NCBI GenBank assembly: GCA_028708195.1 | Contig: JAQVZK010000008.1 | Coordinates: 1-18,052, forward strand | Direction of reading: 5' to 3' | DNA length: 18,052 bases | Source: Desulfovibrio sp. | Lineage (GTDB): Bacteria; Desulfobacterota; Desulfovibrionia; Desulfovibrionales; Desulfovibrionaceae | Shown: piece by piece, positions 1,859 to 18,052 of the stretch | How the letters are laid out: the number at the start of each line of letters is the position of its first letter | How positions within the stretch are numbered: the first letter of the stretch is position 1 | Notes under the pieces: generated by a model | Seen by the model: only the letters and a program-made list of their open reading frames with translations | Told to the model about the DNA's origin: nothing | The model's database searches: none | Position numbers and translations under genes: made by a program

Positions 1859-4800
1859 ATGCGTATTGTAAACATCACCCGACCGACAGCTGCTCAACAG
1901 TCTCTTGTTCCAGCTGAAGCCGATGCAAGAATTACTTTGAATTTTCCTGCCAATGAAGCCACGCTTGAGCGTTCTGGCGACGACCTTATGTTCCGCTTTG
2001 ATGATGGCGCAAGCGTTCGCATTGAGAACTTTTATACGCAATATAACAAGGACACTGCCCCTGAATTTGAAGTTGACGGTCAACTCGTCAACAGCGCGGA
2101 TTTTTTTGCCGCCATGGGGCCTGACCTTATGCCTGCAGCCGGGCCCTCCTCCGCTGCCACAAGAGACAACCATTACAACGAGTATTCCAACAGTGCCCTG
2201 CAGGTTGGCATTGACCACCTTGGCGCGCTTGATTACGGCTTTGCCATGGGCGCTGTCACCTCTGAAGATTATTATGGTGGGCCCCTCAACCAGGCGCCGA
2301 TATTGAGCACCAATTCTGAATCGATCACGCTTTCACTGAAGGAGTCCGGTTGGGTTAAAACCCCTTCGGGCAGTTTTGTTCCTGAGCCTGGTGTTGCAGT
2401 CGTTAACGGCAGTTTTTCCGTCCATGATCCTGATGGCGACACACTCAGCGCCTCCATCGTCATTAATGGCGCATCCTATGCCATCAATACCACTGGTCCC
2501 ACGACTGTTACCACCGAATATGGCACATTTGTCATCACACCTTCCAACGCTGGTTCAAATGTGACCTATAATTTTACCTATACCCTGAACAACGATGACT
2601 ACGGCGCTACAGACTCGTTGAAAGAAGGCGAAATCCACACTGACAAAATTGTTGTCAGTGTGACGGACGGCATCAACCCAGTCAAAAATCAACCTATCAA
2701 TATTGTTATTGAAGGCACTAATGACGCTCCTGACATTATCAGGGTCGACGACGTTACGCTGAAAGAAGACGGCGTTTTTGCCGGAAGCTATGGCGAGCAC
2801 GACACCACCAATGCTCTTGATCCCGCTGAAAATGCGGTTACCCAGGCTGGCGGCACAGCGGCGGATCAGCACAGAACGTCCATTGAAGGCCAGATCGTCG
2901 CGCGTGACCCTGACCACGACAGCGTACTGACATACGGTCTTACCGACAACACAGGCAACGAACTTTCCCTTGGCGGTGTGGTTGGTTTTGTTGATGGAAT
3001 ACAGCCTGTGGTCATCATGGATATCGAGACTGATCCTGCCAACCCCAACATCACGATTTATCATACTGTATACGGCGACCTCAGCCTTGATACGTCAACG
3101 GGCCAATACCAGTTTACGCTTGTTGACACTGAGGCCGGAGGCAAAACCAACGCCCTCTCTGAAGGTCAGAAAGTGCACCTGCAGTTCAAGCCTTCGGTAG
3201 AAGACGAACACGGCCTGCACGACTTTGATGTCAACCACCTGCGTAACGGCAGCACCCCCGTAGACGGAGACAACACCATTGACGTCAATATTCTTGGCAC
3301 CAATGACCGCCCCGTATTTTCAGACGATGCCGCCCATTGGAACAACGCCCAGCTCTTACCTGACAAGCAGGGCGTCGACCATGAAAGCATCAAGGAATCC
3401 GGCGCCCCCAACGACAATAGTGGCGTTAACGACAATGTCAGCGTTAGCGGCACCATAACCGCCACCGACTACGACAATGACGCGGTACTGCGTTACGGCT
3501 TCAAAATCGCAACACCTTCCGGTCAGCAGATGGTCAATACGCTTTACGTGGTTTCTGACGGCGCAGACGGCTATGTTCTGCTGACTGAAGCGGATTTTCT
3601 TGCCCTGGGCACTACAGACTATTATGGCAAGCTTGAAATCACCGACAACAGCGCATTCAACAGCGGCACTTATACCTTTACGCTCAAAAACAGCTCCGAG
3701 TGCGTTCAGGCAATGGATGAAGGTGATACCCTGCTTGTGGAGCTTGAAGTTGTTGTCAAGGACGAATACGGGGCGTGGAGCGACATTCCCCTGGAATTGC
3801 AGATTGTTGGCGCTAACGATGCTCCCTTCTTTACCGAGGGCAGCCAGGGCACGGTGAAAGAAAGTGGCGTCTACGCCCCTGACAACAGCGCCCTCTTCCC
3901 CAATCTTGTTGAAAATACCTTGACCACTGATGTTGGCAACGGCGATCTGGCTACGGACGCTTCACGCAATGAGCAGCACAAGCTGACGCTCACCGGCCAG
4001 GTCAAAGCTGATGACGTGGACCTTGACGACAAGGGCAACCTCACCTTTGGCATGTCCAACTCACTGGGTATAACTTTTGATGCGGCCCCTGACGGTTCAA
4101 CCACTGTCTACTACCTTGCCAATGGCAGCGTTACCGACCAGACGCCTGGCAACAACGATTATTACGGCACTCTGACAATGAATGCCGACGGCACCTATAC
4201 CTTTGTTCTCAACAACGCCACCGGCAGCCCTGCCGACAAAATGAGCGAAGGCGAGCAAAAGGTCATAACGTTTTCCCCCTCGGTAAGTGACGGGCAGGCA
4301 ACCTCGGTGGGCGGTGGCGAAATTGTTGTTACCATCATTGGTTCCAATGACATTCCCGACCTGTCCATTGCGCACGACAATACGAGCCTCACTGGCGATG
4401 TGGGCGGCATATTCAATGATAACAAGACCGTTCAGCAGGCCACGGGCAAGCTGACAGTCAGTGATATGGATACGCTGGACATGACACAAGGCCACGACAT
4501 CAAAGCCGAAAGCACCAATACCGGCGATCAGGGGGTGGATCTTGCCAGCAGCAGTTCTGACAATACCATCAAAATCAACGGCGAGTACGGCAATCTGTAT
4601 ATTACTCGCACTTCTTCTGGCAGTGATCATACAGATGATACCTACACATACCGCTATGTCATCGATCCCATCCGGGCCGCTGCCGTGGGCAAAAACGAAG
4701 TAGGCAAAGAAGACTTTACCGTCACCATACGCGACCAGTTTGGCGCGTACGACGAAAAACAGCTTGTTTTTGAGGTTATTGGCAGCGACGACCCCACCAA

Positions 4801-7800
4801 CATCGGCCTTTCCAATGGTCGTGCCCTGGTTGTGGAAAGCGGCGTCACGCCCGCCGGGCAAATCAGAGTTACCGCCACTCAAGACGCTGTGTACAAGGCC
4901 CAGTACCAGAATGAAGAAAATGGGCAGCCCGAGACCAAGGGTGACCTCTACGCTCACGACGTGGACAAGAGCGACCAGGCAGCGCTGAACAACCCCGGCG
5001 TTGATGCCAATATGCACTACGTTATTGTAGACAATAACGGCACTCTGCATGACGTCAACAAGCTCATGAGTGGGCAAAGCTCCATTGAAATTCAGCTCAA
5101 GTACGGCAAACTCATCATCGAGCGCACCAAGGCCGATGGTGAGACCGATGACAGCGCTCCTTTCAAGTACACGTATGAGCTTGATAACGACAATCATGAC
5201 GTACAGGAACTGAATTTTAACGAAAAGTTGGATGACAACTTTGTCGTGCAGGTTTACGAAACCGATGGCAGCAATGAAATTACAGGCACCCCTGTAAGTC
5301 AGGTGCCTACCGGCGTTATCGTGCAGGGCACCAATGACAGGCCCATCATTGACATCAGCACTCTTGACCTGTCGATGGAAGAGCACTACGGCAACAATAC
5401 CGGCAGTCAGTTTGACAGCGGCGGCAGGGTTCTCAAGGGTCAGATTGCCATAACAGACTATGAGGATGCCGGCACGTATGATGATGCAAGCAATACGTGG
5501 CAGTCTGAATATGTAAATTCAGGCGCTGGATTTACGTTTTCTCTGGTTAACCTTCTGCCTGGCAAATCGGTTGATAACGCCGATCTGCGTGGCGACGACC
5601 TGTCAGACGAAGCCAACTTTGACCTTAAAAGCGATGCCTTTGTCCTTCAGGGCAAGTACGGCGTTCTTGAGATCGATCCGCAGACGGGCGAGTTTACCTA
5701 CACCCGTACCAACGACCTCACCTGGCTCAATAATGGCGAATCCACCGAAGACACCTTTTACGTTCGCGTAAAGGACCCCAATGGAGCGTATTCTGAAGTA
5801 AAACCGATCGTCATAACCATCAACGGCAATGACGATCCGGGCGTTCTTACTGGCAACCATGCAGACATGAAAGAAGACGGCGTGGACGGCTCGGACCTGC
5901 CCGGCGAAACCCACTACCTGCACTATGACGGCACAAGCAACGACCACGGACATACAGAGCATCTTGGTGCAAACCACCCCAACAACGGCAACCCTGCCTC
6001 CTTTGTGGTCAACGGCCAGCTTGGAGTGCGCGATCCAGACACTTCCGACAGCCCAGCTTCCGGTTCTGGCGCGTCTGATGCCTATACCTACGGCAATCCG
6101 ACAACAACTGTACCTGGCGGGGCTACCGACGATGGCGCCGATATAGGCAAGGTCAGCGAAGCCACCGCTAACAGCAACGGTTCTTTTGAGTATACCATCC
6201 ACGGCTACGGCACTCTGACCCTCTGGCCTGACGGAAAGTACACCTTTGAGCCGCTTATGGACGGTGACGACCTCGCTGCCCCCATAAACAACCTTGCCGT
6301 TGGCGAATCCGTTGTCATAACCGTACCCGTGACCGTCACCGGCTCAGGAGTAAACCACACAGGCGAAACGACAAAGGGCAACCTTGTCGTCATCATCAAT
6401 GGCACCAACGACGCGCCCATAGTGACTTCAGAAACTCAGGGCAGTGTTGAGGTGACCTACACCAACCAGTTAACCAAAGAAGAACTGACCTCCAAGCTCA
6501 CCCTTGATCAAAGAAACGGTGAAGCCGTCGTTGTAGACAGCGACGAAATGGCGCACTGGGATGCTGCCAAGGGCGGTAACATTACGGTAAACGGCTCGCT
6601 TAACTCTGAAAAGATCATCAAGGATGTGGACCACGGCGACCAGAGCGGGCTTACCTTCTTTACTGTTGACGGCACTGCCACCACAGGTGAAGCTCAGGGC
6701 AACCTTGTGCAGCAGATCGAAGGCAAATACGGCACGCTCATTATTCAGCGCGACGGGTCCTACCAGTACCTTCTGGACAAGAGCGGCACTGCCTACAAGG
6801 ATATGATTGCCGCAAAACCCGAGGGCATTGAAGAGGAAATCTTCAATATCTATGTGCGTGACCCGCACAATGCCACGTCTGAAGAGCCCATCAAGCTTGT
6901 CATCAAGGTTGCTGCCCCTGACGCGGACCACGGCGGTGGCGACCCAGGCAACCCCGACCCCAATCCCACCAACCCCGGTTCCGGTGGAAACCAGCCGGGT
7001 AAAGGCATTGATGACCAGCACAGCCTCGTCAAAGAAGACGTAAATTACACGGCCACTGGCAAGGTGGGCGGCGATAATTACTATGATTCCGCTCTCAAAC
7101 TGACCGGCTATACTTCTAGTGCGGGCGACGCAAGCCTCCACAACTCAGATAATGTGATCGTAACCAAGTACGGCACCATCAGCCTGATGCCCGACGGTAG
7201 CTACACCTACACCCTGAACAACGACCACCCCGACGTGCAAAAACTGCGCGAAGATGATGAAATCAAGCAGAAATTTACGTTTACAGACAAAGACGGTACC
7301 TCAAAGGTCGTCGAAATCATCATACAGGGCACCAACGATCTGCCCTTTGTGGTCAGTTCGTCTGACGGCAGCCTGACCCAGCAAAGCGGGGGCACCTGGG
7401 TTTCTGTCAGCGCAACTGGCTCCTTTGAAGCCAAAGACCTTGACGATGGGGAGCGCGAAAACCTGGTGCTCAAAGGCAGCAACGTCACGTCTACCGGTCC
7501 AGATACCTACACGGTTCAGGGCCAGTATGGCGTATACACCATCACCAAAACTGTCCTCAACGGCAACTCACACTTTGAGTATACGTACGATCTTAATTCT
7601 GCCTATTATACCCCCAACTTTGGCGGGCAGGTAAGTGACCCCGTAACGGTGGACATCAGCGACGGCAAGTCAAGCATCCAACACACTGTTAATGTTGAAA
7701 TATCTGCCCAAAACGACAACCCCATCATCAGCAAGGCAAAAGACCTTACTGTTTCTGAGGACAATAAAAGCATCAGTGACACGACCAAGGTTGAAGCAAC

Positions 7801-10333
7801 TGACCCCGACATTGCCATTGTTTCAACCGGCCCTGCAGACAACCTCACCTACACCGTAGCCAATGCAGACGGCAGCGGCGAAGGCTCTATGATCGTTGGC
7901 AAGTACGGCGTTCTGGTTATGGGCGCTGACGGCAGCTACTACTTCAAACTGAACAACTCGCACCCGGATGTTCAGGCGCTGAACGGTGCTGACCCCAACG
8001 ATCCTTCTTCCAGGCCTGAATCCATTGATGAAAAGTACCGGGTGATAGTACGGGACGGCAAGGGCGGCGTTGACTATAAGGAAATCACGGTTGTTATCGA
8101 AGGTTCTGACGACGTGCCCACGCTTTACCTCTATGGTGCCAACGCAGCGCTTGAAGCAACGGGCCCCGCAGGCGCTGGCGCGCTGCTTGTGGTCAAGGAT
8201 AAACAGGGTGGAACCGAAGCCGACTATACAGTGCATGGCAAGGCTCAAGGCTATGACACTGACCAGGCTGACTACGATACCCTGACATACAGCATCAAGG
8301 ATAATGGCAGCAACGTTGCCAGTGTTGATATCCACGCAATCAAGACCGCCACCGGTTGGGAGATCACCTCAGGTTTGACCCCTGGTGCCGTGCATATGGG
8401 CACCCTGAGCATCAACGGCTCCACAGGCTTGTACACTTTCAAGGGCGATCCCAAGGGTGTTGCCAATCTTGGCCTTGGTGAAGAAATCAACATCCCCGGC
8501 ACCATTGTGGTTTATGATTCGCACGGCAATGAAGCCTCTGCCGACATGAACATCAACATCATGGGCACCAATACCGCGCCCATCATTGTTTCCACTGGCG
8601 ATAAAACTCCTGACTACAGCACTGTGCCGCTGGATAAGAATGAATTTGATATCGCGCAGAGCAGTAGCGGCACGTATGCACCCCTTACTGGCGAGATTGT
8701 CACTGAAGACGCTGATGGCGATGAAACAATTGTCTATATCCGAACGACAGATCCCATCCTTGGCGAACGCAATGTAACAGAGCTGACCGGTAAATATGGC
8801 AAGCTGATACTCACAGTTGGCGACGATGGCAAAACCCACTACGAGTATATTGTTACCAACTCCGGCAGCATCAGAGCATTGGGTGAAGGCGAAACAGATA
8901 AGGATATCTTCAACCTTATTGTGCGTGACCCCTATGGAGCCGAAGGATCTGGAAGTCTGGTCATCGACATTATTGGTGCCAATGATGCTCCCAAGATATC
9001 CATTGACGAGAGCGCCCGCACCATAGCTGTCACCGATCCGGACAAGAACGATTCGCATACACTCACCATTGTTGTTGATGGAACAGATTATGCCCTTACC
9101 GTAGACCCGCTTGATCCTACGCTTTTTTCATGCGATTTGCCCGACGGCACGCTGACCCTGCGTTATGAAAAAATGCCTAACGGTGAAAAGCAGTGGACAT
9201 ACAGCTTTGAACCTGATGCTTCACTGGCAAGCGGTCTTCCTTCCAACAAATACAATGAGTTTGACTTCTCGGTTAAGGTAGAAGATCAACATGGGGCAAG
9301 GGATGCATCCGGTGATGCGACAGTTCGCTACTACGGCACAAACCATGCGCCGGTTGGCCAGCATGTAGCCCTGACCGCGATTCTTAGCGGCGTAATCCCT
9401 GCGGAGAGCGAATTTTCCTTTGGCGACAATCCTCTTGCCTTGCTGGATCAGGATGGTGACCACCTCAACTATACGTTCACCGACAGCACAGGCGCCGATG
9501 TTGCTGTTTCTGGCACAGCAACGACCATCGCCGGTGAATTTGGCACCCTTGAAATCATCACCAACACCAGTGGCGACGGGTATGTGTACAATTACACCAC
9601 GACCACCGATATGACCGCCATGAAAAAACTGGCGCAAATGTACGCCAATGGCGAAGAGTTGAAAGACGAGTTCCTTTACACTGTCAATGACGGAATCTGG
9701 CTGGACAGCGAATCTGGCAAGGTTGAAATCCATCTGGACGTCAACAACCTGCCAAGCGGATCGTTTGGCGATGCCAGCGAAACCAATGCACAGGTGATCT
9801 TTGGCACTGCCGGTGATGATATTCTTCTGGGCGGACTCGGCAATGACATTCTCTCCGGTGGAGAAGGCAATAACAGCCTTCACGGCGGCCTTGGCAACGA
9901 CAGCCTCTTTGGCGGCACCGGCAACGATTACCTGGATGGCGGCACCGGAGCCAACGAACTGTACGGCGGCGCTGGCAACGATGTGCTGGTGTTCAGTGCC
10001 AGCAATACCGCTATGGACGGCGGTGCTGGTATTGACATGATGGTCGGTGCCGACAAAGATTCCCTTGAAAGCCTGTTCTCAAACCCCGCCACCAACACCA
10101 TCAAGAGTATTGAAATATTCGTGATTGATGGTGGCGAAAGCCTGACCAGCCTTGCCAGTCTGAAAACCTACGGCGTACAGTTGAATGGATCTGAAAAAAT
10201 CGAACTGTCCTCTGACTGGGCTGTAAACAACGCCGAAACCCCAAGCAGCATGTCTGGCGACTATGTTGCCTTTACAAGTGACAACATGACCATACTGATC
10301 TCAAAGACTGCCCTTGCCGAGGGCATTATCTGA
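1859..10333 (+). CDS. Giant secreted VCBS-repeat / RTX adhesin (type I secretion substrate)
   Basis: A 2824-aa surface or extracellular adhesin. The ATG has GGAGG 6 nt upstream. It has no Sec signal peptide. Residues 1-75 form a short beta-rich head (FRFDDGASVRIENFY) resembling the prefix domain of Bap/BapA-type adhesins. From about residue 150 to 2500 it is built of VCBS/cadherin-like repeats of 110-310 residues; about 14 junctions carry the G-T/S/A-N/D-D-x-P signature, near residues 285, 479, 650, 827, 974, 1156, 1322, 1514, 1823, 1949, 2082, 2235, 2372 and 2492. Asp-rich DxDxD loops suggest calcium-stiffened rods. A Gly/Pro/Asn linker lies near 1687-1720. Residues 2649-2711 hold seven tandem RTX nonapeptides (GGxGNDxLx), followed by an acidic, small-residue C-terminus ending LISKTALAEGII, typical of an uncleaved type I secretion signal. 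Such proteins mediate biofilm formation and attachment. No ABC transporter, membrane fusion protein or LapD/LapG control genes are adjacent, so its exporter must be elsewhere. Confidence 0.92.
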   Translation: MRIVNITRPTAAQQSLVPAEADARITLNFPANEATLERSGDDLMFRFDDGASVRIENFYTQYNKDTAPEFEVDGQLVNSADFFAAMGPDLMPAAGPSSAATRDNHYNEYSNSALQVGIDHLGALDYGFAMGAVTSEDYYGGPLNQAPILSTNSESITLSLKESGWVKTPSGSFVPEPGVAVVNGSFSVHDPDGDTLSASIVINGASYAINTTGPTTVTTEYGTFVITPSNAGSNVTYNFTYTLNNDDYGATDSLKEGEIHTDKIVVSVTDGINPVKNQPINIVIEGTNDAPDIIRVDDVTLKEDGVFAGSYGEHDTTNALDPAENAVTQAGGTAADQHRTSIEGQIVARDPDHDSVLTYGLTDNTGNELSLGGVVGFVDGIQPVVIMDIETDPANPNITIYHTVYGDLSLDTSTGQYQFTLVDTEAGGKTNALSEGQKVHLQFKPSVEDEHGLHDFDVNHLRNGSTPVDGDNTIDVNILGTNDRPVFSDDAAHWNNAQLLPDKQGVDHESIKESGAPNDNSGVNDNVSVSGTITATDYDNDAVLRYGFKIATPSGQQMVNTLYVVSDGADGYVLLTEADFLALGTTDYYGKLEITDNSAFNSGTYTFTLKNSSECVQAMDEGDTLLVELEVVVKDEYGAWSDIPLELQIVGANDAPFFTEGSQGTVKESGVYAPDNSALFPNLVENTLTTDVGNGDLATDASRNEQHKLTLTGQVKADDVDLDDKGNLTFGMSNSLGITFDAAPDGSTTVYYLANGSVTDQTPGNNDYYGTLTMNADGTYTFVLNNATGSPADKMSEGEQKVITFSPSVSDGQATSVGGGEIVVTIIGSNDIPDLSIAHDNTSLTGDVGGIFNDNKTVQQATGKLTVSDMDTLDMTQGHDIKAESTNTGDQGVDLASSSSDNTIKINGEYGNLYITRTSSGSDHTDDTYTYRYVIDPIRAAAVGKNEVGKEDFTVTIRDQFGAYDEKQLVFEVIGSDDPTNIGLSNGRALVVESGVTPAGQIRVTATQDAVYKAQYQNEENGQPETKGDLYAHDVDKSDQAALNNPGVDANMHYVIVDNNGTLHDVNKLMSGQSSIEIQLKYGKLIIERTKADGETDDSAPFKYTYELDNDNHDVQELNFNEKLDDNFVVQVYETDGSNEITGTPVSQVPTGVIVQGTNDRPIIDISTLDLSMEEHYGNNTGSQFDSGGRVLKGQIAITDYEDAGTYDDASNTWQSEYVNSGAGFTFSLVNLLPGKSVDNADLRGDDLSDEANFDLKSDAFVLQGKYGVLEIDPQTGEFTYTRTNDLTWLNNGESTEDTFYVRVKDPNGAYSEVKPIVITINGNDDPGVLTGNHADMKEDGVDGSDLPGETHYLHYDGTSNDHGHTEHLGANHPNNGNPASFVVNGQLGVRDPDTSDSPASGSGASDAYTYGNPTTTVPGGATDDGADIGKVSEATANSNGSFEYTIHGYGTLTLWPDGKYTFEPLMDGDDLAAPINNLAVGESVVITVPVTVTGSGVNHTGETTKGNLVVIINGTNDAPIVTSETQGSVEVTYTNQLTKEELTSKLTLDQRNGEAVVVDSDEMAHWDAAKGGNITVNGSLNSEKIIKDVDHGDQSGLTFFTVDGTATTGEAQGNLVQQIEGKYGTLIIQRDGSYQYLLDKSGTAYKDMIAAKPEGIEEEIFNIYVRDPHNATSEEPIKLVIKVAAPDADHGGGDPGNPDPNPTNPGSGGNQPGKGIDDQHSLVKEDVNYTATGKVGGDNYYDSALKLTGYTSSAGDASLHNSDNVIVTKYGTISLMPDGSYTYTLNNDHPDVQKLREDDEIKQKFTFTDKDGTSKVVEIIIQGTNDLPFVVSSSDGSLTQQSGGTWVSVSATGSFEAKDLDDGERENLVLKGSNVTSTGPDTYTVQGQYGVYTITKTVLNGNSHFEYTYDLNSAYYTPNFGGQVSDPVTVDISDGKSSIQHTVNVEISAQNDNPIISKAKDLTVSEDNKSISDTTKVEATDPDIAIVSTGPADNLTYTVANADGSGEGSMIVGKYGVLVMGADGSYYFKLNNSHPDVQALNGADPNDPSSRPESIDEKYRVIVRDGKGGVDYKEITVVIEGSDDVPTLYLYGANAALEATGPAGAGALLVVKDKQGGTEADYTVHGKAQGYDTDQADYDTLTYSIKDNGSNVASVDIHAIKTATGWEITSGLTPGAVHMGTLSINGSTGLYTFKGDPKGVANLGLGEEINIPGTIVVYDSHGNEASADMNINIMGTNTAPIIVSTGDKTPDYSTVPLDKNEFDIAQSSSGTYAPLTGEIVTEDADGDETIVYIRTTDPILGERNVTELTGKYGKLILTVGDDGKTHYEYIVTNSGSIRALGEGETDKDIFNLIVRDPYGAEGSGSLVIDIIGANDAPKISIDESARTIAVTDPDKNDSHTLTIVVDGTDYALTVDPLDPTLFSCDLPDGTLTLRYEKMPNGEKQWTYSFEPDASLASGLPSNKYNEFDFSVKVEDQHGARDASGDATVRYYGTNHAPVGQHVALTAILSGVIPAESEFSFGDNPLALLDQDGDHLNYTFTDSTGADVAVSGTATTIAGEFGTLEIITNTSGDGYVYNYTTTTDMTAMKKLAQMYANGEELKDEFLYTVNDGIWLDSESGKVEIHLDVNNLPSGSFGDASETNAQVIFGTAGDDILLGGLGNDILSGGEGNNSLHGGLGNDSLFGGTGNDYLDGGTGANELYGGAGNDVLVFSASNTAMDGGAGIDMMVGADKDSLESLFSNPATNTIKSIEIFVIDGGESLTSLASLKTYGVQLNGSEKIELSSDWAVNNAETPSSMSGDYVAFTSDNMTILISKTALAEGII
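2280..9370 (+). repeat. Array of about 14 degenerate VCBS-type coding repeats
   Basis: The repeats are visible as protein motifs rather than as identical DNA: each unit has a YGxLxxxxDGxYxYxLxN core (for example KYGTISLMPDGSYTYTLNN at about 7168-7220) and closes with V-x-I-x-GTNDAP-like residues. The low DNA identity between units suggests an old array rather than recent duplication. Confidence 0.85.
9803..9991 (+). repeat. Seven tandem RTX nonapeptide coding repeats
   Basis: Consecutive 27-bp units encode GTAGDDILL, GGLGNDILS, GGEGNNSLH, GGLGNDSLF, GGTGNDYLD, GGTGANELY and GGAGNDVLV. These form a calcium-binding beta-roll that folds outside the cell after type I export. Confidence 0.9.
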
Positions 10334-11634: not shown

Positions 11635-11721
11635 GCCGGGATGGTGGAATTGGTAGACGCAGCGGACTCAAAATCCGCCGGGGGCAACCCCTTGCGAGTT
11701 CAAGTCTCGCTCCCGGTACCA
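11635..11721 (+). tRNA. tRNA-Leu, anticodon CAA
   Basis: An 87-nt class II tRNA. The acceptor strands GCCGGGA and TCCCGGT pair (with one G-U), the D-arm contains TGGTAGACGCA, and the anticodon stem GCGGA/TCCGC encloses CTCAAAA with anticodon CAA. A long variable arm (about CGGGGGCAACCCCTTG) and the T-arm with GTTCAAGTC follow, and CCA is encoded at 11719-11721. It is the last host-like gene; the sequence behind it changes composition and gene content, so its 3' end is the likely attachment site of the element to the right. Confidence 0.97.
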
Positions 11722-11888: not shown

Positions 11889-11938
11889 TCTGCAGGCGAT
11901 AGTTTTTGTCTAAACCACATGGTCAAGGGGTGGTTGGG

Positions 11939-12679
11939 TTGAACCAATATCTCATTCATAAATATGCAAATCTTACCATCCCCGTGGAGTCGGATCTAAG
12001 GAAATTTAGCGACTTTGTACTCATGTGGGGTGGAGGACAAGAACGTTTTCGTTCCTCGGGCATCGTGCATAATGTGTTTACCATGACCTTGGATTCAAAA
12101 AGGTACTATGTGTGTTTTTCAGAAGAAGCTAAGCATTTTTTTGAGCTTGAGGTGCATGAACGCATCCGGGCGATCTATGACAGCGAAATTAATGAAGAAT
12201 ACTTGCGCCATATTGAAGAGGATACTGCCCAGTATGGTCAATTCCCTTATTTACTTGAGGGGGATGTTATAACTCCAGACAGTACCATTTTTAAAGAAAT
12301 TTGTGCTCATATCGATGTGCACATCTCCGAAATCAAGAAAGTGCTTGATCTGTGCCAAGATGGCATATTACCACTTTCATATCTACAGAAATGCCTAGAA
12401 AAAGCTTGCGCCTTGAATGTGCTAGTTCTTATCCAAGATGGGTGGAAGCCACGCATTGACATTAATTCAAATACACTGCTTGGCCTCGATTTAGATATAA
12501 CGGACTACATCGATATCGCAGGCCTATTATTGCCTTCCATAACGAAAAATGAAACGATATTGGAGTACACAAAGAAATGTTTGAACTGTGGAACCTACTA
12601 TCAGGCAAAAGGCTCTAAAGCAGTATTTTGTCGTGAGGCATGCCGTTCCAGCTATAGAAGAAGAAAAAAGAAGATGTAA
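11939..12679 (+). CDS. Hypothetical protein with C-terminal zinc ribbon
   Basis: I do not recognise the full-length family. The start is a TTG at 11939 with AAGGGG 8 nt upstream; an upstream in-frame TTG at 11906 would give 257 aa but has a poorer site and lies almost on the predicted transcription start. The 246-aa product has an alpha/beta N-terminal two thirds (residues about 1-205, including SDFVLMWGGG and acidic stretches) and a C-terminal zinc ribbon, C-x2-C-x13-C-x3-C (CLNCGTYYQAKGSKAVFC, REAC), closing in the very basic tail RSSYRRRKKKM. That ending resembles DNA-binding zinc ribbons of small MGE proteins. Its DNA is clearly more AT-rich than the host genes to the left. Position as first gene behind the tRNA and the palindrome at its promoter suggest a regulatory or recombination-linked role, but this is inference. 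Confidence 0.8.
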   Translation: MNQYLIHKYANLTIPVESDLRKFSDFVLMWGGGQERFRSSGIVHNVFTMTLDSKRYYVCFSEEAKHFFELEVHERIRAIYDSEINEEYLRHIEEDTAQYGQFPYLLEGDVITPDSTIFKEICAHIDVHISEIKKVLDLCQDGILPLSYLQKCLEKACALNVLVLIQDGWKPRIDINSNTLLGLDLDITDYIDIAGLLLPSITKNETILEYTKKCLNCGTYYQAKGSKAVFCREACRSSYRRRKKKM

Positions 12680-12899: not shown

Positions 12900-13130
12900 A
12901 TGGCGACTACGCTCATTGATCAGTATTCTGCGATATTGCCTGAATCGTTTCCGGGCCCCATGATCGACTATTTGACAAGCAAGGGGTTGCGCTGGCGCAC
13001 AATCCAGAATCGTAGGTCACGCGGCGAGATCCCTGCTCACTGCTTTGTCAAAGTGTCTCCTCGCAAGGTTCTCATTCTGCGTGATGCTTTTTTGGCTTGG
13101 CTCTCCGACGATATGCGTCGCGTCAATTAG
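12900..13130 (+). CDS. Small helix-turn-helix protein, excisionase/AlpA-like
   Basis: A 76-aa protein with AAAGAGGTG 6 nt ahead of its ATG. The core YLTSKGLRWRTIQNRRSRGEIPAHCFVKV looks like a winged helix-turn-helix of the MerR/AlpA/excisionase class, in which a first helix is followed by a recognition helix (TIQNRRSRGEIP) and a short beta hairpin; the remainder (LILRDAFLAWLSDDM) forms the closing helix. Members of this class act as recombination directionality factors or as transcription regulators of integrated elements. It is the first gene of a run with the 65-aa gene and the helicase gene, and the palindrome upstream is a candidate binding site. Without an integrase in view, excisionase versus regulator cannot be decided. 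Confidence 0.75.
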   Translation: MATTLIDQYSAILPESFPGPMIDYLTSKGLRWRTIQNRRSRGEIPAHCFVKVSPRKVLILRDAFLAWLSDDMRRVN

Positions 13131-13186
13131 TAACAAAACCTCCTCGCCTGTGTTTTTCAGGCCGTGGACATAGTAAGGAAACAACG

Positions 13187-13384
13187 ATGGATTGTAATAA
13201 AAATAAAAACGAAGGCATGCCTATAGTGGCTGATGGCGCTGTAGACAGCGTCAGACATGAAATCCCGGGCAATAATAAGGCTCTTTTGGAAGAAACTCTC
13301 CGTGCGTTTAAAGCTGCCGGCTACGAAAACAGGCGCATGACTGTGCATTCCATAATGATTGTTGTGGAGCCGCGTAATTCTTAA
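13187..13384 (+). CDS. Hypothetical 65-aa protein
   Basis: Family not recognised. The ATG at 13187 has TAAGGA about 7 nt upstream; an upstream GTG/ATG-like extension into the preceding gene (frame open from 13097) would overlap the HTH gene and lacks a binding site. The N-terminus (MDCNKNKNEG) is polar and probably disordered, followed by an amphipathic helix (NNKALLEETLRAFKAAGY) and a beta segment (MTVHSIMIVVEP). It has no membrane or signal segment. It lies between the HTH gene (56 bp away) and the helicase gene (50 bp away), all on one strand, so it is likely co-transcribed. Confidence 0.65.
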   Translation: MDCNKNKNEGMPIVADGAVDSVRHEIPGNNKALLEETLRAFKAAGYENRRMTVHSIMIVVEPRNS

Positions 13385-13395
13385 ACATGCTTCAT

Positions 13396-13423
13396 GGTGC
13401 AGGGCTGACTCTAGCCCTGCACC
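13396..13423 (+). promoter_or_regulatory. Perfect 11-bp hairpin abutting the helicase ribosome binding site
   Basis: GGTGCAGGGCT (13396-13406) and AGCCCTGCACC (13413-13423) pair perfectly around a 6-nt loop. The next bases, GGGAGG (13424-13429), are the ribosome binding site of the 878-aa gene. There is no T-run, so a role in translation control or mRNA processing fits better than termination. Confidence 0.75.
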
Positions 13424-13434
13424 GGGAGGACCGT

Positions 13435-16071
13435 ATGGGAAATATCAAGGAAGAGCTCAATAAATTTGGTAATGAATTGGGCATGAACATCTGGCTTATT
13501 GAAGAATCCCCCGTGGTTGAATATGAGGCACAAACACACCAAGCCAACATGATGAATGCGCCAATTAAAGATGCAATACTTGATGTGCATGCCAGCTCTG
13601 TGCCCTCAAACAAGAGGTGCGGCAGGGGCTATCACGATTACCATATCTCACGTGCCCCGATAACGTACACTCGCACGCATTTGGAAAGATTCATCGACAA
13701 TTGGCCTGCTCGCGAGCAGGCCAATAAAACTGAAAAGAGCATTGCCCTGGCAGGAAAGGATTCGTTCTCTTCTGCCTTTAACAGGGCGTTCAGCATGTCT
13801 AATGTCACCAATATCTATGACCCGGATGACGACCTGATCAAGGCAGCTGTTTTTGAGGCTCTTCTTGAGCGGGAGGCATCTTGCCAGTTCGCTTCCGGCA
13901 GCAATGCCAATCTTCGTGTGCTTTTGAATATCAAGGAAAGCCATGGCCGTGAGAGCATGACGGTTTCTGGCGAGCTTGGGCCAGATAACGAACTGAGGTG
14001 GGCCCTTAACCACGGCAAAACCACAGGCAGGACATGGGTGAAGCTGCTTGGCATTGTTTATAACTTGTCCCACATGGACACCTTGGCGACTCTGGCCAAC
14101 ATTCTGAGCATGAGCTTTGAAAATCTTTTTAAGCTTTCCAGTGATAGGCATGCCGCTGAATTCAATGGTGGATCGCGGCCAATAGAAGACGTGCCTGCCT
14201 TTCTTCAGTTGCCTGGACTTCCGGCTGGATCGGCTTGCGCTGAGTTGATGGAGATAAGGTACATCTACGGCAATGCCGGGCAGATAATCGGAGCCATCCT
14301 GCGCTATCGGTTGAATGGAAATGATTTCTGTCTCCCTGCCACTGTTGGGCGTGGGGTTCTTTGCATGGGCAAGTACAAACCGACAGCCCATTTCCTTAAC
14401 CAGCACCTTATGGACCAACACCCGTTCGCTCCGGTCATTTTCTTTCAGGACATGCGTACAGCTCTTGCCTTTGAGCGTATGCTTGGCGAAGCGCGAGGTT
14501 ACGACTCCGAAAAATTCATTGTGACAGCCCATCTTGGGGATGACCTTTCAGTGCTACCTTGGAGTTACTTCCATGGTCATGAGGTTGTGCTTATCCCTGC
14601 TCCGGTAAAAGAGTGCATGGCGCTGGTCAAGTTGTACAAGGAGTACATTACGGGCGCACAGGCTAAGAGCTTCCAGGTCTATTCTGGCTTTCTTCTCCAC
14701 TCCCAGCCAGCCTGTGCCCTGGTAGGCCCTGTGGAGGGCGTCACTGATGCCGAGGCAGAACTGCTGCACACCGCTATCGTACTCGACGCTATAGAACGCC
14801 CCTTATGGTTGGCCCAACAAGTAGTCAATGACAGCGTTTCATATGAGGCATTTGTGGCATGGGGCCAGAGGCAGTGCATTTTCAAAGGCCCCAACAAAGC
14901 CAGCAACGTCCCTTCAACGGGGCAATCATGCTCGTTACCCCCGGCGGACCCCGCCCTGACACCTCCACTTGCATACAGCTTAGATATGGTAACACTCTAC
15001 CACATCATACGCCCAGGTAGCTTTTTTGCGCTTGTGGGGCCTAAGGGATCCGGAAAAACTCAGATTGCGATGTCTACTTGCCGTGGGATCATATATGGCA
15101 ACACCCCATGGCCTTTGTTTAGTGGAAATGGGATTAGCGCTGGCAATGTAGCCTATATTGACGCAGAAACGCCCTATGATGAATTTTGCGCCAACCAACA
15201 GCAGCACGGCCTTACCGAAGTACGCGACACCCGTTTTTTTGGGCTGTCGAGGTTCGATCCTCACCTCCCAGATTTTTGTAATACCTTTTCTTTGACGGAT
15301 GCAGCATTTCGCGAAGGTTTAACCACCTACCTCCTAGAAAATAAATGCCGCGTCGTTGTTTTGGACAACCTCACAGCCTTGATGGGTGACGGCGTACATC
15401 ACGGAAAGGTGGCTGAAACCTTGCTCGACTGGGTCAAATTGTTGCAAGGCCATGGGCTGTGTGTGGTGCTTGTTCACCACAAAACGACTGATGTAGGAAC
15501 TCCCCAGCATGGTGTTCAAGCAAGAGGCAGCCATCTCTACACCACCCTGGCCAGAACAGTCATTACTCTCGTAAGTAGTGCAGAAATACTGAATAATAGT
15601 GTCGCACCGGAAATAGTCCAAACTAAGGCGGCACAGGATGGGTTGACTGTTGGGATGCGGTTTGACGCGAGCAAGCCTGCTCCAGTTCTTGATAAGAAGT
15701 CCTTTTGGCTGCATCTGCCGTTTGGGGCTTCAGAATGGCAGTTTTTGACCGCTACCGGAGCAGATGGGAAGGAAGTTGAGTTTGCCCAAGTCTGCGCTAA
15801 ACCGGAGGCTGGTCTTGCAATTCAGGGCGACCCTTTAATTGACGCGCCTGAGTCTGGAGATGTAGCGATCCTTGACCAACTGTCTTCCGACGAAAAGTTG
15901 GTATTCGACATGGCCAAGATTGCAGGGACGGTTAAAACCGCTGATATCACAAAGAAACTTGATTGCAGTGACAGAAAAGCCCGTAACCTCACAAAAAGCT
16001 TGGAAGAGTGCGGACTTCTTGAACCCGACGGGAACAGTGGCTCCCAACAGGGATATCGCATAAAAAATTAG
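13435..16071 (+). CDS. Replicative helicase-like RecA/AAA ATPase with Toprim-like region and C-terminal winged helix
   Basis: An 878-aa protein of the mobile-element RepA/AAA_25 helicase type, likely unwinding DNA in the element's own replication. The ATG at 13435 is chosen over one at 13387 because GGGAGG lies 5 nt upstream and the longer start would sit in the preceding hairpin. Residues 1-250 are not assignable. Residues about 273-400 resemble a Toprim primase fold (EIRYIYGNAGQIIGAILRY, PVIFFQDMRTALAFERML, TAHLGDDLSVLPW, VVLIPA), but the usual catalytic Glu and DxD are not evident, so it is probably inactive. Residues about 515-750 hold the ATPase: Walker A GPKGSGKT (about 534), DAETP, Walker B RVVVLDN (about 641), LVHHKTTD (about 679) and RGSHLYTTLAR (about 703). 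Residues 815-878 form a winged helix (KTADITKKLDCSDRKARNLTKSL split by turns). It is the last gene of its operon, next to the iterons and the AEP primase. Confidence 0.85.
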   Translation: MGNIKEELNKFGNELGMNIWLIEESPVVEYEAQTHQANMMNAPIKDAILDVHASSVPSNKRCGRGYHDYHISRAPITYTRTHLERFIDNWPAREQANKTEKSIALAGKDSFSSAFNRAFSMSNVTNIYDPDDDLIKAAVFEALLEREASCQFASGSNANLRVLLNIKESHGRESMTVSGELGPDNELRWALNHGKTTGRTWVKLLGIVYNLSHMDTLATLANILSMSFENLFKLSSDRHAAEFNGGSRPIEDVPAFLQLPGLPAGSACAELMEIRYIYGNAGQIIGAILRYRLNGNDFCLPATVGRGVLCMGKYKPTAHFLNQHLMDQHPFAPVIFFQDMRTALAFERMLGEARGYDSEKFIVTAHLGDDLSVLPWSYFHGHEVVLIPAPVKECMALVKLYKEYITGAQAKSFQVYSGFLLHSQPACALVGPVEGVTDAEAELLHTAIVLDAIERPLWLAQQVVNDSVSYEAFVAWGQRQCIFKGPNKASNVPSTGQSCSLPPADPALTPPLAYSLDMVTLYHIIRPGSFFALVGPKGSGKTQIAMSTCRGIIYGNTPWPLFSGNGISAGNVAYIDAETPYDEFCANQQQHGLTEVRDTRFFGLSRFDPHLPDFCNTFSLTDAAFREGLTTYLLENKCRVVVLDNLTALMGDGVHHGKVAETLLDWVKLLQGHGLCVVLVHHKTTDVGTPQHGVQARGSHLYTTLARTVITLVSSAEILNNSVAPEIVQTKAAQDGLTVGMRFDASKPAPVLDKKSFWLHLPFGASEWQFLTATGADGKEVEFAQVCAKPEAGLAIQGDPLIDAPESGDVAILDQLSSDEKLVFDMAKIAGTVKTADITKKLDCSDRKARNLTKSLEECGLLEPDGNSGSQQGYRIKN

Positions 16072-16090
16072 CTCTGCCTGTCTATTCATA

Positions 16091-16126
16091 ATGGCGCGTG
16101 GCTTTCGGGTCACGCGCCATTTTTTT
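16091..16126 (+). terminator. Rho-independent terminator of the helicase operon
   Basis: ATGGCGCGTG pairs perfectly with CACGCGCCAT around a 10-nt loop, followed by TTTTTT. It starts 19 nt after the helicase stop codon. Confidence 0.92.
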
Positions 16127-16198
16127 ATCCTCAACATAGCCTACTGACAAACAGTCCGACCACTGTAGCGTCCTTGCCGAAAACAGAAGCTCCCCCCC

Positions 16199-16340
16199 CC
16201 TGCATGACCTGCAAAAGTGTCCTGCATCTTTAGCCATGGTCGATCCCAATCCTGCATCTTTCCTGCATTTGACCTGCATTATAGTGAAACGCTCCTGCAT
16301 TTTTGTCTGCATTTACCCTGCAAAATAGCCTGTATGCAGG
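16199..16340 (+). repeat. Iteron-like array of about ten CCTGCAT repeats, candidate replication origin
   Basis: CCTGCAT or a one-base variant starts at 16199, 16208 (CCTGCAA), 16221, 16251, 16262, 16273, 16294, 16306 (TCTGCAT), 16317 (CCTGCAA) and 16329 (CCTGTAT), and a reversed copy ATGCAGG ends the array at 16334-16340. Most steps are 11-12 bp or about twice that (11, 11, 21, 12, 11, 12), so the sites face the same side of the helix. A C10 run (16191-16200) precedes it. Location between a helicase-like gene and a primase gene points to an initiator-binding origin; a regulator array is the alternative. Confidence 0.75.
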
Positions 16341-16420
16341 ATCCGAAAAAAGTCGTTGATAAGCATTTCAGCATGTTAAGCTAGTATCCATTTTACATGG
16401 GGAGGGCAAAAAGGCGTTAA

Positions 16421-16569
16421 ATGCAATTTGATTTGTGGGGGATGAGTTACAAGATGCCTATGCCTCCATGAGCGTGAACACCTTGACCCCTGTAGTTGGG
16501 CTGAATGAAAACATTCCAGAAGTTGTAGCCGCACAAGGCGATACTAATATTCCACACAGCGCTGTGTAA
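16421..16569 (+). other. Two overlapping mini reading frames in the origin-primase gap
   Basis: A 16-codon frame (16421-16471, MQFDLWGMSYKMPMPP) has AAAAGG 6 nt upstream and ends in an ATGA overlap with a 33-codon frame (16468-16569, beginning MSVNTLTPVVGLNENI). The second can also be read from a GTG at 16435. They might be coupled small proteins or one gene broken by a frameshift; the last codons overlap a palindrome, which argues for caution. Confidence 0.25.
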
Positions 16570-16631
16570 ATTTTTGTCCCCCACCTTTTCAGGTGTATGG
16601 GCTTTCGCACAGCACGCACACCTCGCACAGC
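16554..16631. promoter_or_regulatory. CACAGC sites upstream of the primase gene
   Basis: A perfect 14-bp palindrome, ACACAGCGCTGTGT (16554-16567), is followed by two direct copies of TCGCACAGC (16605-16613 and 16623-16631, 18 bp apart). All share CACAGC. They lie between the iterons and the candidate primase promoter and could bind a repressor or initiator. Confidence 0.5.
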
Positions 16632-16658
16632 GCAAAAAAACCATCTGCGAAAATAAAA

Positions 16659-16758: not shown

Positions 16759-18052
16759 ATGGAAAGTTTGAATTGTTCACTTATGCCAACAGGGCAGAAG
16801 GAAGAACGGATAGTCTACGCGGGCCATGCCGACCAGGAGCACGCGGATTTTGCGGAAATGTCTCGCCAATGGCGTGAGTACCCTGCTTCAGAAGAAGGTA
16901 TCAGAGAAGCCGTAGGTGACGGCTATACCGCCATTTCCATCTACGAATTCAGCGGGCCTGTGGAAAAGGGTAAACCTCAGCCCATGCGCTATGGCGACCT
17001 GGTGCTGGACTTCGATGCCAAAAAAGAGCTGCTTGATAACGATGGCAATTCGTTGGGCAAGGTGGGCGATATTGGTAAGGCACTTGAAGCTGTTCGCATT
17101 TTCAGCAGGTTGCTTACCAAAAAATATGACGTGAACCCCAACCATTTGCATTATTACGCCAGTGGCGGCAAGGGATTCCATGTGATTATCCCACGAGAGC
17201 TTATAGGTTCAGAAGCTGGTGACATTGAGTTGCCTGCCATTTACAGGCGTACCCTTGATTCCATTCTGAATATTGCTGCCCATAAGGAGCTTTGGAACGG
17301 TATAGTCCTTGGTGCACTTAAAGATAACCGTAAACTGGCCCCTGAAGACCTTTGCATCGACCCAAACGGGTTCAAAGGTGGCAAAGGCCAGCTCATACGC
17401 CTGCCGCATATCCAGCGGGCTGATGGCAATTACAAGGTGCCGGTGACATATGACGAGATCATGCATAATGGAGCTTCCTTTTTTGAAGAACTCGTCAAGA
17501 AAGACCGGCATATTGAGGAGGAAGGAAGCCGGAATGGTATCACCTGCGCTCCCATGCTGGAAGAAGCCTATTTGCAAGCCAGAAGGGTTGTTTGTCTTAC
17601 TGCTGACAGGCGTAACGCCGATAGCCAGGTTGCAAGCCTTGAAACAGAATGTAAATTTGTGACCTTTTGTGCCCAGCATGCGGGTGAGGTTACAGAGCCA
17701 CAATGGTTTGCGCTTGCCAGAATCTTTTCCCACTGTGGGTCATTAGGGCAAGCTCTGTTCCACATGTACAGCCGCTTGGATCCTCGTCGCTATAATGAAG
17801 AAGAGGCCAAAAATAAGCTGCATAATGCCTACAGTTATTCCCCCATCACCTGCAAGGAAGTCCAGAAAGTATTCCCTTGTTCAGGCGACTGCCGGGTAAA
17901 ATGCCCTATGGATCTTTATCGGCGGAAGCTCTCTGCGACTCTCGAAGTTGATGCCTTTGCCGTACTGGACGAAGGGCTTGTATTTTATCCAGATGCCAGC
18001 GACAAAACCATTTACGAAAAAGTTTCTTCACCTGTTGAAGTAAAGGCCTCTG
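16759..18052 (+). CDS. Archaeo-eukaryotic primase (PrimPol-type), 3' truncated by the window
   Basis: The frame is open for 431 codons from the ATG at 16759 to the window end, so the C-terminus is missing. TAGGA lies 6 nt upstream. The product carries the AEP signature in order: motif I GDLVLDFDA (Asp84, Asp86; metal binding), motif II ASGGKGFHVIIP (Ser135 to His141; nucleotide binding) and motif III-like LIRLPHIQRADG (about 212-223). A PriCT-like helical segment follows at about 313-360 (EPQWFALARIFSHCG, ALFHMYSRLDP), then a cysteine cluster C-x8-C-x3-C-x3-C (about 364-382) that may bind zinc. AEP primases of plasmids and integrative elements make primers at their own origin and often are fused to a helicase; here the helicase-like protein is encoded separately, about 0.7 kb upstream, with the iteron array between. 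A longer C-terminal helicase domain may lie outside the window. Confidence 0.88.
   Translation, partial: MESLNCSLMPTGQKEERIVYAGHADQEHADFAEMSRQWREYPASEEGIREAVGDGYTAISIYEFSGPVEKGKPQPMRYGDLVLDFDAKKELLDNDGNSLGKVGDIGKALEAVRIFSRLLTKKYDVNPNHLHYYASGGKGFHVIIPRELIGSEAGDIELPAIYRRTLDSILNIAAHKELWNGIVLGALKDNRKLAPEDLCIDPNGFKGGKGQLIRLPHIQRADGNYKVPVTYDEIMHNGASFFEELVKKDRHIEEEGSRNGITCAPMLEEAYLQARRVVCLTADRRNADSQVASLETECKFVTFCAQHAGEVTEPQWFALARIFSHCGSLGQALFHMYSRLDPRRYNEEEAKNKLHNAYSYSPITCKEVQKVFPCSGDCRVKCPMDLYRRKLSATLEVDAFAVLDEGLVFYPDASDKTIYEKVSSPVEVKAS

Follow-up and report, generated by a model that had tools for sequence, protein, structure and literature searches.

A phased CCTGCAT iteron array behind a RecA-fold helicase gene, a probable island origin in Desulfovibrio

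Described iteron-reading helicases and the Desulfovibrio locus

In SaPI islands, the C-terminal domain of the Rep helicase recognises iterons directly downstream of its gene, and in SCC elements Cch2 binds a repeat region directly downstream of its own gene (PMC7581432). In the origin of Gram-negative PICIs, two iteron sets flank an AT-rich region (PMC6092414). SGI1 carries an iteron oriV immediately 3' of rep (PMC7433901). For pRN1, a candidate origin lies just 3' of a gene whose product, a replication protein, carries a winged helix at its C-terminus, while in RSF1010 a separate RepC reads the iterons (PMC4234260). Finally, AEPs fused to DUF927 were described in integrated elements, with integration at tRNA genes (PMC5862659). 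What is said here of these systems, including what they lack, holds for the accessible parts of the cited articles.

We looked at a window of 18,052 nucleotides, one contig of a draft Desulfovibrio sp. genome, in which the right side of an island is cut by the contig end. There, a gene for a candidate initiator-helicase is followed by an array of CCTGCAT repeats and an AT-rich core. We consider it likely that this stretch, 16199-16384, is the recognition part of the oriV of an integrated mobile island and is read by the RecA-fold helicase encoded upstream. With SaPI, SCC and PICI, the locus shares an initiator helicase with a C-terminal DNA-binding domain, here a predicted winged helix, short iterons and an AT-rich stretch directly downstream, and an island with integrase and AlpA-like genes. 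Unlike in these systems, the helicase is of the RecA fold (AAA_25) and not of the D5/DUF927 (MCM-like) kind, and a conserved core and a strict 11-bp phase are kept across diverging repeat words; unlike in PICIs with their two flanking iteron sets, no second set was detected beyond the core. By analogy, binding and replication may proceed in this module as in a SaPI-type helicase-ori, although these two differences, in helicase fold and in the lack of a detected second set, place it outside that family. The initial annotation had suspected an unusual recognition system; the principle turns out to be less unusual, since SaPI and SCC already provide helicases that read iterons just 3' of the gene encoding them (accessible part of PMC7581432).

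The other systems are related to the locus in single traits. Its C-terminal winged helix and candidate origin 3' of the gene are shared with pRN1, but pRN1 has a helicase of another superfamily and, in place of iterons, a long stem-loop as its origin. SGI1 is likewise an integrated island with an iteron oriV right after rep, but its iterons, four in number, are 17 bp long, it has a putative DnaA box, and its initiator is of the RepA_C type and not a helicase. Unlike in RSF1010, where the iterons are long and RepC is a separate protein, the winged helix is fused to the helicase here and the repeat word has 7 bp; no member of the RepC family was found in the eight window ORFs scanned, in an island truncated by the contig end. 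Integration at a tRNA gene and an AEP-DUF927 protein, of 972 aa, are shared with the AEP-DUF927 islands; the module differs from what the accessible part of PMC5862659 describes in having a RecA-fold helicase as a separate protein, followed by a phased array and a core. No title on an iteron origin in Desulfovibrio or on this module was found in a search that left subscription journals mostly outside.

The array, the helicase gene and the island

The leftmost feature of the window is a tmRNA end. Left of the island lies an ORF of 2824 codons (1859-10333). Its product has a cadherin-like domain and, towards the C-terminus, RTX calcium-binding repeats, which makes it a candidate for a very large secreted or surface protein. 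Between this ORF and tRNA-Leu lie a TatA gene and an ACT-domain gene. The tRNA-Leu(CAA) gene (11635..11721, + strand, detected by ARAGORN) is the presumed attachment site of the island, of which only this tRNA end is visible; the exact 24-base tail occurs in the host draft genome solely at this tRNA, with no second copy of the tRNA-Leu 3' end. The island then reads, in order, a treble-clef ORF, a helix-turn-helix gene, a small ORF, the helicase gene, a terminator, the array, the core, a gap with 9-bp repeats and an AEP gene. The first ORF (11906..12679, + strand), a zinc-ribbon protein in the initial annotation, has a weak treble-clef match near its C-terminus (DUF2116, 17.7 bits, below the cut-off of 26.8). 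The product of the small helix-turn-helix gene (12900..13130, + strand) matches HTH_17 with 21.9 bits, below the cut-off of 27, and is called AlpA/excisionase-like by analogy.

The candidate initiator-helicase gene (13435..16071, + strand) encodes 878 aa from the ATG at 13435, or 894 aa from the ATG at 13387. Its product matches AAA_25 with 46.1 bits (cut-off 27), a domain present in all 29 family members, and in part of the family Pfam winged-helix matches (TrmB or HTH_27) were obtained as well. An AlphaFold2 model, in the 894-aa numbering, has a RecA-fold domain at about 505-800 and a C-terminal winged helix at about 834-892, and its fold matches are of the RecA/DnaB/KaiC type; the best reading is a helicase resembling the RSF1010-RepA/T7-gp4 kind. 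Behind the gene stands its intrinsic terminator (16090..16131, + strand), a 14-pair stem at 16090-16121 followed by a T-rich tail.

The array itself (16199..16340, + strand) consists of ten forward copies of CCTGCAT with at most one mismatch, six exact and four with one mismatch, starting at 16199, 16208, 16221, 16251, 16262, 16273, 16294, 16306, 16317 and 16329, and of an exact inverted copy at 16334-16340; the description of about ten copies of a 7-bp motif in 142 bp, closed by an inverted copy, is thus confirmed. The start-to-start spacings are 9, 13, 30, 11, 11, 21, 12, 11 and 12. Six of the nine agree with the spacing of 11-12 bp or its double that had been claimed and the other three do not, the phasing being strict for the last seven copies alone (vector strength 0.96, period 11.1; all ten copies together, 0.85 and 10.8). 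The next-densest 142-bp cluster in the window holds 3 copies, and to the right of the core the motif is not clustered. Shuffling the window 200 times with dinucleotides preserved put at most 4 copies in one span against the 10 observed, and 200 shuffles of the array stretch with any 7-mer allowed gave at most 6. Over the whole window, hits to CCTGCAT numbered 68 against 67 expected, and since this is no enrichment, clustering is the sole non-random aspect of the motif. Exact CCTGCA pairs separated by 3-15 bases occur 31 times in the host draft genome (2.3 Mb, 344 contigs, 78% complete). Five of these pairs belong to this array, and the remaining 26 form no chain of three.

The closest homologue, locus L033 of genome G045, has an orthologous array behind an orthologous helicase gene, and absence of the repeats from close homologues, which would have spoken against the origin, is not what is seen. 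Between window and L033 the array is kept in its right half and remodelled in its left (0.48-0.77 identity per 60 columns), while a block of 152 bp (16334..16485, not assigned to a strand) is identical and runs from the last iteron across the core and some 100 bp beyond it. The coding parts have 0.67-1.0 identity per 60 columns, and within the comparison conservation is highest in the array's right half, the core and the flank. No RNA fold better than those of shuffles was obtained in 16385-16470 or 16466-16566, on both strands. The L033 island measures 28.9 kb and is bounded by two 39-bp copies of the tRNA-Asn 3' end, in direct orientation. A tyrosine integrase is encoded at one of its ends, and further products are the 972-aa AEP-DUF927 protein, a ParB-like protein, a cytosine methylase, an ERF annealing protein and a restriction-like protein. 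L033 thus has both the AEP-helicase fusion and the tRNA direct repeats of an integrated AEP-primase island. At 7191-7268 of the oriented locus (G045:C1), the last residues of its winged helix, about 22, lie in another frame, from damage or an assembly error.

The initial annotation had also considered equally dense CCTGCAT clusters elsewhere in the host chromosome. Among exact CCTGCA pairs there are none in the host draft genome, but two other species of the genus have CCTGCAT-type 11-bp arrays that lie outside islands and lack any helicase, in L160 (G112:C155, array at 1443-1550) and in L159 (G104:C168, array at 2292-2320), with very strong phased statistics of 67 and 110, respectively. One of the two arrays lies upstream of an aspartate-carbamoyltransferase-like gene and the other upstream of an anaerobic-ribonucleotide-reductase-like gene, both named from translations, and they could reflect a regulator or slippage. 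Together with the remodelled left half, such arrays would suit a functionless 11-bp minisatellite that arose by slippage and is decaying. For the island array we regard this as very unlikely: the right half, core and flank are what is best conserved in L033, the spacers separating the window copies are not repeated, and helicase relatives with other repeat words hold the 11-bp phase at the same place.

Phase and core in relatives of the helicase

Relatives of the helicase were matched in 40 of the 288 genomes of the family (E <= 1e-3) and, with a family profile, in 55 of the 348 genomes of the order (E <= 1e-15), and a protein collection holds at least 82 of them. Plasmid and phage records gave no match, and no homologue was confirmed in viral contigs. 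The homologues in other Desulfovibrionaceae islands are 22-82% identical and most are followed by the array and core layout. For the comparison, 20 loci with a helicase match were taken, as stretches of 8-20 kb selected by the helicase.

The repeat word varies with the lineage: TCTCGCC in L035 (spacings 11, 11, 12, 21, 11), CCnCCAA in L052 (11, 11, 12) and a TTTGC-like word in L034. Genome G045 even holds three helicase modules (L033, L034, L038), each with a different word, which favours an element-encoded binder and disfavours a host protein. In a phase test, recurring 7-base words with at least 6 matches were counted per lag in the 170 bp before the core. The main test comprised 12 loci, the window and L033 being left out. 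Lag 11 was counted 38 times against 3.3 expected by shuffles, an excess of 12.7 sd (11.5 sd in a repeat run), with further excess at lags 21, 22, 23 and 55. In five control regions of the same loci lag 11 was not in excess (-0.9 to 0.7 sd), although in two of them single other lags reached 4.2 and 6.5 sd. Taken singly, 13 of 18 loci were phased (p <= 0.05), and significance was not reached in L034 (p 0.054), L039 (0.082), L040 (0.31), L042 (0.44) and L051 (0.33). Among ten more distant relatives lag 11 was counted 22 times (4.3 sd, above all 300 shuffles), with four loci individually at p < 0.05, and lag 9 exceeded lag 11 (5.6 sd, mostly from one locus). Beyond the core (+24..+194) no lag-11 excess that would mark a second iteron set was found (0.7 sd).

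Repeats phased at 11 bp would also suit a partition centromere, to which a segregation protein of the element would bind. The spacing here is that of a type II centromere such as parC of plasmid R1, an array of repeats of about 11 bp, and the ParB-like protein of the L033 island is encoded downstream of the AEP gene. We nevertheless find a centromere quite improbable, because within the stretches of 8-20 kb just two of the 20 helicase loci, L033 and L040, yielded a ParB homologue and because an AT-rich core and a fixed place behind a helicase gene would not be expected of it.

The core of the window (16361..16384, + strand) reads AAGCATTTCA-GCATG-TTAAGCTAG and differs at 3 of 19 positions from the family consensus, AATAATTTCA-N5-TTAAACTAG. 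With at most 4 mismatches in 19, on the helicase strand and downstream of the helicase gene, the core is present in 13 (the window, L033-L036, L038-L042, L048, L049 and L051) of 21 loci, i.e., the window and the 20 relatives, a count that is partly circular because the consensus was derived from these same loci. L052 has the core with one extra base, L037, L044, L045 and L046 have it only with 6-7 mismatches, and downstream of the helicase gene it is absent from three of the 20 relatives (L043, L047 and L050). Unrelated viral DNA, 668,582 bp in all, contained no occurrence at the same threshold. When 288 genomes were scanned, the reversed pattern matched at 15 places and the core at 32. Six of these have 0-1 mismatch, and five of the six adjoin a helicase relative; one of the five, in G048, had been missed by the earlier genome search for helicase matches, and its helicase relative was confirmed after the core scan. 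The AT fraction peaks at the core, 0.68 against about 0.5 around it (mean of 14 loci). Thus, short iterons, significantly phased in 13 of 18 loci, and an AT-rich stretch (AT 0.68) do stand directly downstream of the helicase gene. In L207 (G048:C58) and in G107:C161 the core lies on the strand opposite to the adjoining helicase relative, unlike in the other loci. In L039, at about 13050-14550 of the oriented locus, a flagellin-like ORF, named from its translation, separates helicase and core.

Standing between two genes of the same direction, the array might be no origin at all and instead an operator. The helicase, a regulator of the AlpA-like type or some other protein of the element would bind it and thereby control either the helicase gene or the primase operon. 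AlpA-like proteins related to an 84-aa protein of L033 are indeed encoded in 11 of the 20 helicase loci. We consider an operator unlikely, since the array is also present in L035, L041, L045, L048 and L052, where the fetched stretch has no AEP homologue, and an AlpA-like protein was not found in the stretches of L035, L045 and L052. Moreover, the array lies behind the terminator, no promoter-like site was found at the core, and the 761-bp region holds 2 such sites against 1.3 expected. An origin remains our preferred reading, and the array together with the core is probably that of the island. An origin with an element-encoded initiator is what the initial annotation had placed here; the array and core downstream of most helicase relatives agree with it, and the origin activity itself is what we infer from them.

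Candidate binder and the adjoining AEP module

Three candidates for the binder had been named: the winged helix of the 878-aa protein, the primase and the zinc-ribbon protein. Neighbouring genes were counted in the 20 helicase loci, and absences hold for the fetched stretches only, because these were selected by the helicase and span 8-20 kb. Homologues of the AEP were found in 5 of the 20 loci, those of the zinc-ribbon protein in none and those of the small helix-turn-helix protein of the window in 2. The array is linked to the helicase and not to the AEP primase or the zinc-ribbon gene. The winged helix, with which the array goes and which is predicted to bind DNA, is therefore the favoured candidate, and the zinc-ribbon protein becomes a less likely one. 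Several helicase copies would use their C-terminal winged helices to bind the short iterons, and would align on one face of the DNA because the iterons stand one helical turn apart. The helicase might then open the AT-rich core beside the array and load there, with priming from its own N-terminal part, from the adjacent AEP-DUF927 protein or from the host.

The AEP-type primase gene (16759..18052, + strand) is cut by the contig end, and its product matches DNA_primase_S with 19.4 bits, below the cut-off of 26.8. In the complete 972-aa orthologue of L033 the DUF927 helicase domain scores 215 bits, and the AEP part gives weak primase matches. As the product of the next gene, with a DUF927 part that matches SCC Cch and a SaPI protein, helicases of the iteron-binding kind, this primase-helicase might itself bind the array as its origin. 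This is hardly probable, as only a quarter of the helicase loci have an AEP homologue and the array is present without a nearby AEP. Further, in L135, L136 and L137 AEP orthologues (91-94% identical) occur without this helicase and without a CCTGCAT array, and keep other repeats upstream instead.

These other repeats are, in the window, three 9-bp copies with CGCACA (16606..16632, + strand). They stand at -154..-136 of the AEP start in L033, L135, L136 and L137 and at -82..-64 in L040, and are thus kept, with the window, in 6 of 13 AEP loci. In the window they are followed by an AT-rich stretch, which makes them a candidate second origin or an operator. Since AEP loci without helicase and array keep the CGCACA repeats, the window seems to contain two adjoining replication modules. 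The change-over between them would lie near 16455-16470, L135 being similar to the window from 16468 onward. In L136 (G043), the AEP is divided between two frames, and immediately upstream of its gene lies the end of a transposase-like ORF, named from its translation.

As a tentative proposal, which may well claim too much, the loci could represent an undescribed class of Desulfovibrionaceae origins. A single polypeptide, an initiator-helicase of the RecA/DnaB kind, would read the origin with its own C-terminal winged helix; the word would drift, while the 11-bp phase and the core consensus would stay fixed, the phase acting as the code and the core as the common melting or loading site, and the window island would have two origins, the second made of the 9-bp repeats and served by AEP-DUF927. 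If this is true, the self-recognising helicase logic known from SaPI would have arisen on another helicase fold. The loci would be a natural set of origins with a diverging recognition word and constant spacing and core, which would permit a direct test of how an initiator-helicase reads helical phase and would give a handle on the evolution of origin specificity, that is, of incompatibility between islands in one cell. They would also suggest a replicon for Desulfovibrio genetics and provide a sequence signature for replicating islands, several of which carry restriction-modification or other defence genes, in sulfate reducers.

As for such cargo, L033 encodes a cytosine methylase and restriction-like proteins, L035 a type II/III methylase and a ResIII-type protein, and L041 a HEC-01-like ATPase. 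In distant helicase islands, a trio of AAA_5, DUF3150 and CobT-like genes is conserved beside ERF (L138, oriented 4125-8340; L043-L046, L051 and L052).
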